Below the pieces are notes generated by a model. It searched no databases. It was not told where the DNA came from and saw only the letters and a program-made list of their open reading frames with translations. A stretch of 64,000 nucleotides of DNA. It comes from an uncultured Spirochaetales bacterium (lineage in GTDB: Bacteria; Spirochaetota; Spirochaetia; Sphaerochaetales; Sphaerochaetaceae). Positions 60,118-61,793 of the stretch are shown one piece after another. Position numbers and translations under genes: made by a program. The DNA lies in NCBI GenBank assembly GCA_949285785.1, contig CASEAG010000028.1, forward strand, positions 62,001-126,000, given 5' to 3'. Within the stretch, counting starts at the first letter, position 1. Every line of letters starts with the position of its first letter.

Positions 60118-60435
60118 ATGGAAGACGACAGAAGCAGGACGACTCTTCACCAGATGGAGACGGCAAGCCTCGTATGCGGAGTGCTTTCGATAGTATTCTA
60201 CTTTCTCTCGCTCGGCTTCGTCTCGATGATTCTCGGCATCGTCGCGATCGTCCTTGGCAACAGATGCAGAAGGCAGGGAGGATCGGTGACAGGATTCGTA
60301 TGCGGAATCATAGGCACGTCCCTCGGCGTCCTGATGGTGCTGGAGGCCCTCATGATACTCATCGGGCTCAGGCCGTTCATCGACTCGCTGTTCGACCTCT
60401 TCCTCCATACGCACCACAGCATGCGCCTGGTCTGA
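60118..60435 (+). CDS. small membrane protein (DUF4190-like)
   Basis: A 105-residue protein with two helices (ASLVCGVLSIVFYFLSLGFVSMILGIVAIVLGN and TGFVCGIIGTSLGVLMVLEALMILI) separated by a basic loop (RCRRQGG), the layout of DUF4190. GGGAGG precedes the ATG, and TAGAAT lies further upstream. Function unknown. Confidence 0.8.
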   Translation: MEDDRSRTTLHQMETASLVCGVLSIVFYFLSLGFVSMILGIVAIVLGNRCRRQGGSVTGFVCGIIGTSLGVLMVLEALMILIGLRPFIDSLFDLFLHTHHSMRLV

Positions 60436-60443
60436 CAAAAAGC

Positions 60444-60473
60444 TTGACAGTTTCCAGAAACCGCCCTTAGCAT
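60444..60473 (+). promoter_or_regulatory. strong promoter of the candidate RNA
   Basis: TTGACA (60444-60449) matches the -35 consensus; an 18-nt spacer and TAGCAT (60468-60473) follow. The predicted start is near 60480. No open frame follows. Confidence 0.7.
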
Positions 60474-60479
60474 GAGGGT

Positions 60480-60663
60480 GTAGAGAGGCAGGGAGGAGAA
60501 CAGGTCCCAGCAGCCTGGAATGAAAAGCATCAGATGGCCCGTCGAGGAGCGTAACCCTCATCAGGAAAGCCAGATGCGGACAGACGGAAAAAAGGCTGCC
60601 AGAACGGACAGGGCTCCTTCGGAACAAAGAACGAGAAAAGAACACAACCACTGCCTCTTGTAC
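60480..60663 (+). ncRNA. candidate structured RNA of about 180 nt
   Basis: The intergenic sequence after the promoter can fold into a closed structure. A terminal stem pairs AGAGGCAG (60484-60491) with CTGCCTCT (60651-60658), extended by GTA/TAC. An inner stem pairs GCAGCC (60510-60515) with GGCTGC (60594-60599), and an apical stem pairs GCATC (60527-60531) with GATGC (60573-60577) with an inner GAGG/CCTC hairpin. The large internal loops and size recall 6S RNA, but no family was confirmed; RNase P, SRP and tmRNA motifs are absent. Confidence 0.45.
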
Positions 60664-60670
60664 AGATGAG

Positions 60671-60719
60671 GGCCCGGACTTCCGGAGCCGCCCAGGCGGT
60701 CAGAGGATGTTTCCGGGCC
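60671..60719 (+). terminator. compound hairpin after the candidate RNA
   Basis: GGCCCGGA and TCCGGGCC form an 8-bp stem enclosing a second CCGCC/GGCGG hairpin; GTATTTCG follows, a weak U-tract. Confidence 0.5.
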
Positions 60720-60752
60720 GTATTTCGTCTACCACAAATCGAGACAATCTGC

Positions 60753-60758
60753 TAACAT
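60753..60758 (+). promoter_or_regulatory. extended -10 of azlCD
   Basis: TGC-TAACAT, 32 nt before the azlC-like ATG; no convincing -35. Confidence 0.4.
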
Positions 60759-60790
60759 GCCACTCTGTCGCAGACAAGGGAGGCGTTTTC

Positions 60791-61492
60791 ATGGACGGCG
60801 GAGAATCCGGAAGACTCATGCAGTATGTATCCGGTCTGAAGGCCGGACTGCCAGTGCTCTTCGGCTTCGTACCGGTCGGCATCGCCTATGCCGTGCTTGC
60901 CTCGCAGGCGGGATTCTCCCCTCTCGAGACCATGCTCATGTCCATGACCGTCTTCGCCGGGGCGAGCCAGATAATGGCCGTGGGGATGTACGCCCAGGGA
61001 GCCGGAATCGTCGCGATAGCCATCACGACATTCATACTGAATCTCAGGCACCTGATCATGAGCACATGCGTGATGAACCGCATGAAGGGCACGTCAACAC
61101 CACTCAGGCTCCTGGCCTCCTTCTTCGTGACGGACGAGTCCTTCGCCATATTCACGACCCTCGAGGAGAAGAGGTGCACCATATGGTTCTATCTGGGCAT
61201 GGTGACTCTCACCTGGTCCAGCTGGCAGCTTGGCGGCCTGATGGGAATCCTCGCCTCCGGCATGCTCCCATCAATCGTCACAGCCAGCTTCGGCATCGCA
61301 CTGTACGCCATGTTCATCTCGCTTCTCATGCCAAATCTCAGGGGAAACGCGAGACTTGCTCTCCTGGTCGTCATGACGGCATGCATGAACACGGTGCTCT
61401 CCTTCTTCATGGATTCAAGCTGGGCATTGATCGCTTCCACACTGGTCTGTGCGTTCATGGGCGTCTTCTTCGTCGACACGGGGGATGAATGA
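60791..61492 (+). CDS. azlC: AzlC-family branched-chain amino-acid exporter, large subunit
   Basis: A 233-residue membrane protein with about six to seven helices. Family segments are seen: GLKAGLPVLFGFVPVGIAYAV, FAGASQIMAVGM and LNLRHLIMS. With AzlD it exports branched-chain amino acids or their analogues. ATG 60791 follows GGGAGG; a longer frame upstream lies in the promoter. The next gene overlaps or abuts it. Confidence 0.9.
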   Translation: MDGGESGRLMQYVSGLKAGLPVLFGFVPVGIAYAVLASQAGFSPLETMLMSMTVFAGASQIMAVGMYAQGAGIVAIAITTFILNLRHLIMSTCVMNRMKGTSTPLRLLASFFVTDESFAIFTTLEEKRCTIWFYLGMVTLTWSSWQLGGLMGILASGMLPSIVTASFGIALYAMFISLLMPNLRGNARLALLVVMTACMNTVLSFFMDSSWALIASTLVCAFMGVFFVDTGDE

Positions 61493-61493
61493 A

Positions 61494-61793
61494 ATGGAAA
61501 GGATGATTCTCATTGCGGCGATGGTCGTCGTGACATTCATACCGCGTGCGATTCCCGCTGCGCTTATAGAGAAGATGAAGTTCCCGAAGAAGGTGGAGAA
61601 GTTCCTGAATCTCATCCCCTACACCGCCATGGCTTCGCTCATCTTCCCGGGCATCCTCACCGTGGACGGCTCGAATGTGCTCATAGGTCTTCTTGGAGGG
61701 GTTGCCGCCGCTGTGCTTGCATACCTGAGAGCGCCCCTGATCATGTGCGTCGTCTCGGCCATTGTGGTCGACATGCTGCTCTACCTCATCTGA
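61494..61793 (+). CDS. azlD: AzlD-family small subunit
   Basis: A 99-residue membrane protein with four helices, typical of AzlD (VVTFIPRAIPAALI, FLNLIPYTAMASLIFPGIL). The ATG at 61494 is 9 nt after GGGGG; an ATG at 61485 overlapping azlC is an alternative. It is coupled to azlC. Confidence 0.9.
   Translation: MERMILIAAMVVVTFIPRAIPAALIEKMKFPKKVEKFLNLIPYTAMASLIFPGILTVDGSNVLIGLLGGVAAAVLAYLRAPLIMCVVSAIVVDMLLYLI

Follow-up and report, generated by a model that had tools for sequence, protein, structure and literature searches.

The RNA gene described here resembles 6S RNA (SsrS, RF00013) in its length, in having its own promoter, in standing alone and in forming a single interrupted rod closed by the 5' and 3' ends, but it lacks the conserved 6S sequence (CUCUUGG...UCAA; CCCNCUUGAAC...GUUCAAGAG) and occupies a different locus. 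It is also small and purine-rich and carries several GGA triplets, as do the CsrA-sequestering RNAs of the CsrB/RsmZ type, whereas its genus is devoid of a CsrA gene: PF02599 was found in none of the 16 genomes of the genus and in all of the control genomes (E. coli, B. subtilis and T. maritima), an absence that argues against a CsrB-like sponge. A further likeness is to the intergenic structured RNA candidates obtained by comparative genomics, which comprise a set of 104 motifs (PMC2864571) and those of later surveys (PMC8632094 and PMC11109978) and which are likewise covarying intergenic RNAs of unknown function. The accessible text of the two later surveys, searched for Spirochaetes, Sphaerochaeta and Treponema, holds no Sphaerochaeta motif, and no earlier description of the new RNA was found in the open-licence literature. 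The locus adds a covariation-supported RNA family, new to Rfam, in host-associated Spirochaetales, a group for which the literature search turned up few studies of small RNAs other than those on Borrelia.

The gene lies on the + strand of the window (the whole stretch of 64,000 nucleotides that was analysed), measures about 250 nt with its terminator, and is flanked by a small membrane-protein-like gene and by azlC, the latter identified by Pfam. The gap, from the stop of the small frame at 60435 to the azlC start at about 60791, contains no conserved gene. A first-pass annotation had proposed that a non-coding RNA is encoded here, driven by its own promoter, folded into a closed secondary structure and followed by a hairpin, and this proposal is supported by ten homologs that keep the same layout. 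A sequence scan recovered the promoter as claimed (Table 1); it is preceded by A/T-rich DNA and matches 10 of 12 consensus positions, a combination found once as against 0.2 times expected in shuffles of the window. Its billing as the best -35 in the window was overstated, since the two strands together hold 33 copies of TTGACA. All 10 homologs have TTGAC[A/G] followed, 17-18 nt on, by an NANNNT hexamer (hexamers read by eye). The anticipated folded RNA and second, 3' hairpin are borne out by fold energies: the segment 60478-60665 folds at -62.3 kcal/mol (z = -3.6), and the hairpin region 60660-60740 reaches z = -3.5.

Table 1. Predicted elements of the RNA gene, in window coordinates
Feature	Position	Strand	Sequence or partner	Basis or remark
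Promoter	60444-60473	+	-35 TTGACA 60444-60449; 18-nt spacer; -10 TAGCAT 60468-60473	
RNA body, rod-like fold P1 to P7	60478-60658	+		5' end approximate; fold energy and covariation
P1 closing stem, 8 bp	60484-60491 (5' strand); 60651-60658 (3' strand)	+	AGAGGCAG; CTGCCTCT	Homolog alignment, covariation
P2, 5' strand	60492-60498	+	Partner 60614-60620	
P3, 5' strand	60504-60507	+	GTCC; partner 60606-60609	
P4	60510-60515 with 60594-60599	+	GCAGCC with GGCTGC	Homolog alignment, covariation
Apical arm P5/P6/P7	60527-60531/60573-60577; 60535-60538/60569-60572; 60544-60547/60556-60559	+		Fold, covariation
Apical loop	60548-60555	+	AGCGTAAC	Loops in homologs mostly NGAGUAAN-like
Unpaired bases of central internal loop	60582-60585	+	AGAC	Invariant in 10/10 homologs
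A-rich 3' linker	60621-60650	+		Length varies among homologs
Conserved 3' motif	60660-60670	+	GTACAGATGAG	ACAGATGAG within it invariant in 10/10
G+C-rich hairpin (60671-60719) and tail	60671-60730	+	Tail GTATTTCGTCT	Probable intrinsic terminator

A DNA search returned a single close relative (82%) plus two that match more weakly; they have in common TTGACAG, AGAGGCAG...TGCCTC, AGCAGC and GTACAGATGAG, after which come a G+C-rich hairpin and its U-rich tail. A covariance model made from four sequences found five further homologs in the genus, and a tenth, in G014, was located by synteny from the nearby IMP dehydrogenase gene, a Pfam identification; the closing stem of this tenth homolog is changed on both sides. 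The ten sequences share one rod, consisting of P1, a variable A-rich 3' linker, P2-P4, the AGAC central loop, P5-P7 and a NGAGUAAN-like apical loop, with G014 the most diverged in the inner part. In the sequences tested P3 begins at a constant place, beside AGCAGC and 3' of RGAAY, except in G014, where the register is a few bases off. Hairpins with mostly U-rich tails equivalent to 60671-60730 occur in the homologs; the tail in the window is mixed (GTATTTCGTCT), and the element is absent from the + strand list of a simple terminator scan. In the window and, by eye, in other homologs, ACAGATGAG can be placed opposite the U-rich tail as the lower part of the terminator stem. The homologs are widely diverged, yet promoter, closing stem, motifs and hairpin are kept in all ten; because the RNA is kept in one clade despite this divergence, the constraints on the internal-loop bases and the 3' ACAGATGAG mark specific residues.

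Compensatory changes, whose absence the first-pass annotation had named as one half of what would refute the RNA, are present among the homologs. In a nine-sequence alignment that was model-fitted, i.e. fitted to the structure, standard pairs fill 86.4% of pair cells versus 77% in shuffles, and 10 pairs are changed on both sides versus 5.0 +/- 1.2, a value matched by 0 of 500 shuffles; sliding the partner strand out of register lowers pairing to 25-48%. Within P1, the outer pair changes from A-U to G-C, a C-G pair becomes A-U in G014, and an A-U pair becomes G-C in G015 and U-A in G014. Because the alignment had been fitted to the structure, an independent strand-assignment test was run, in which duplex energies were computed for each 5' strand against each 3' strand of eight diverged sequences (near-copies were left out; the permutation does not remove relatedness). 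For P2-P3 the cognate mean was -15.4 kcal/mol versus -7.6, and the true partners were the single best of 40,320 assignments; the apical arm gave a weaker result, with 1107 of 40,320 permutations equally good. Compared across the homologs, the RNA gene shows selection on its fold, on its promoter and on a small number of unpaired bases.

The gene is present in 10 of the 16 genomes of the genus. In an IMP dehydrogenase tree a branch with support 91/89 separates the ten carriers from four non-carriers, while G010 and G013, which have no IMP dehydrogenase match, were not placed; the RNA is vertically kept in one clade. A signature scan of 84,980 species genomes gave six records only, all matching the genus, one of them Candidatus Aphodenecus pullistercoris; signature-pattern matches outside the clade all lie within long open frames and are missing the architecture. 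A match of the R2 model in G321 (L104, E 5.5e-4) was rejected as chance, as it partly coincides with the end of an open frame, and closing stem, promoter and terminator are all missing. Absence from other genera is not proven, because the R2 model missed G014 in the family search and that homolog was found by synteny only. The whole explanation that we prefer, namely a stand-alone structured RNA gene specific to one clade of the gut Spirochaetales genus that includes 'Candidatus Aphodenecus' and acting in trans by protein binding, has in our judgment about an even chance of being correct.

The first-pass annotation had likened the layout to that of 6S RNA, a reading that the searches do not support; the resemblance does not extend to the sequence. 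The comparison with Rfam proposed at the time (6S, RNase P, SRP and tmRNA) matched no family at the gap, where a search of 60380-60800 at E up to 10 yielded noise only and no 6S, or in eight homolog loci at E up to 1, where RF00013 was likewise absent. Across the class, RF00013 finds 6S RNA in 71 of 248 genomes, the same family included, but it has no match in the five genomes of the genus among those listed; in the genome studied here it gives only 11 bits, at G000:C28:264200. That locus carries UCUCUUGGCUCAA and CCCCCUUGAAC...GGUUCAAGAG, and GGGCAGAUG/CAUCUGCCC may form its closing stem. A model (R3) built from nine spirochaete 6S RNAs matches only this locus, L001, at 62.1 bits (E 1.8e-15); the window RNA and ten homolog loci yield no match at E up to 10. 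The genome's real 6S RNA is L001 1494-1669 (G000:C28), about 142 kb from the new RNA and outside the window; its closing stem appears shortened. It shares gene order with the 6S genes of relatives (L049 and, in part, L054): in the family, 6S lies downstream of infC-like and ribosomal protein genes and upstream of a TPR-protein gene, a neighbourhood not seen at the new RNA. The own-genome 6S thus escapes the standard Rfam cut-off, and the Rfam model probably misses 6S across the genus.

Some bacteria have two 6S RNAs, and this precedent, together with the length of the new RNA, its rod closed by the ends and the central internal loop between helices, would fit a second RNA of the 6S kind, greatly diverged, that binds RNA polymerase by mimicking an open promoter. 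Such a role seems improbable, given that neither RF00013 nor the spirochaete 6S model matches, that the genome already has a 6S gene in conserved gene order, and that in the reverse search the model of the new RNA matches no 6S locus. It appears quite improbable, too, that an RNA unrelated to 6S in sequence arose in one spirochaete clade to bind RNA polymerase or another global regulator beside a normal 6S RNA. Two other classes are encoded elsewhere, RNase P RNA at G000:C38:15865-16200 (298 bits) and SRP RNA at G000:C16:10110-10207 (59.5 bits); as to tmRNA, both Rfam and ARAGORN return only tRNA-Val in the window. A weak second RNase P-like match at G000:C28:375746-375932 (13 bits, E 0.04) is probably due to chance.

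The genes around the RNA bear on whether it acts on its neighbour. In most carriers pdxA lies 5' of it in divergent orientation, while the gene on its 3' side is azlC in two of the ten, a GNAT gene in four and convergent in four, the last having no next gene on the same strand. Because the downstream gene varies, the RNA is taken to stand alone, and a leader function for one gene is unlikely. A cis-acting leader, i.e. a riboswitch or attenuator of the downstream gene, could be read from the window, where azlC begins, in the same orientation, about 60 bases 3' of the hairpin; with a same-strand downstream gene that differs among species and is lacking in 4 of 10 carriers, we consider it very unlikely, though read-through may regulate azlC in the window. 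That the locus is instead a short mRNA for a small protein is barely conceivable: the 49-codon ATG frame at 60520-60669 inside the RNA loses its ATG in G011, G004 and G001 and ends after about ten codons in G007, and the indels in homologs are not multiples of three. The locus has what marks a stand-alone structured sRNA, namely an own promoter, a covarying fold, conservation in relatives and a terminator, the last judged from the hairpin and U-rich tail only; comparative analysis demonstrates that the RNA gene exists, that it is conserved together with its fold, and that it does not depend on the gene downstream.

We posit that the RNA would be transcribed from its own sigma-70-type promoter, with transcription ending at the putative intrinsic terminator, and that the transcript would fold into a single long, interrupted rod whose closing stem joins the 5' end to the 3' end. 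The covarying helices could then hold the conserved bases of the internal and apical loops (AGAC, RGAAY and GAGUAA) in place, and these bases may be bound by a protein, so that the folded RNA would act in trans. Protein binding is suggested because the constrained unpaired bases lie in loops framed by covarying helices. Alternatively, mRNAs could be paired by one of the conserved unpaired stretches, either the apical loop or GTACAGATGAG, as in a base-pairing regulatory sRNA, for which an own promoter, a probable own terminator and clade restriction are typical; the invariance of ACAGATGAG also speaks for it. We regard pairing as unlikely, though deserving of serious consideration: CTCATCTGTAC, which is complementary to the conserved 3' motif, occurs in the RNA's own genome only at the RNA itself, CTCATCTGTNC is frequent also in genomes without the RNA, and a search for antisense targets made with the motif's complement gave a signal not above that in such genomes. 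Structure, moreover, is kept along the whole RNA, unlike in a typical sRNA that keeps its seed only. Binding of a protein is favored over simple antisense pairing because the unpaired bases lie in internal loops and no second exact CTCATCTGTAC exists.

The small frame upstream of the RNA (window 60118-60435, about 105 codons) encodes hydrophobic stretches and is without a Pfam match; a similar frame lies 5' of the RNA in G008. On the other side, azlC and azlD (window 60791-61790) separate the RNA from the GNAT gene, as they do, by the frames found, in G011. Since GNAT directly follows the RNA in four other carriers, this arrangement suggests that azlCD was inserted in the sub-lineage of the window and G011.
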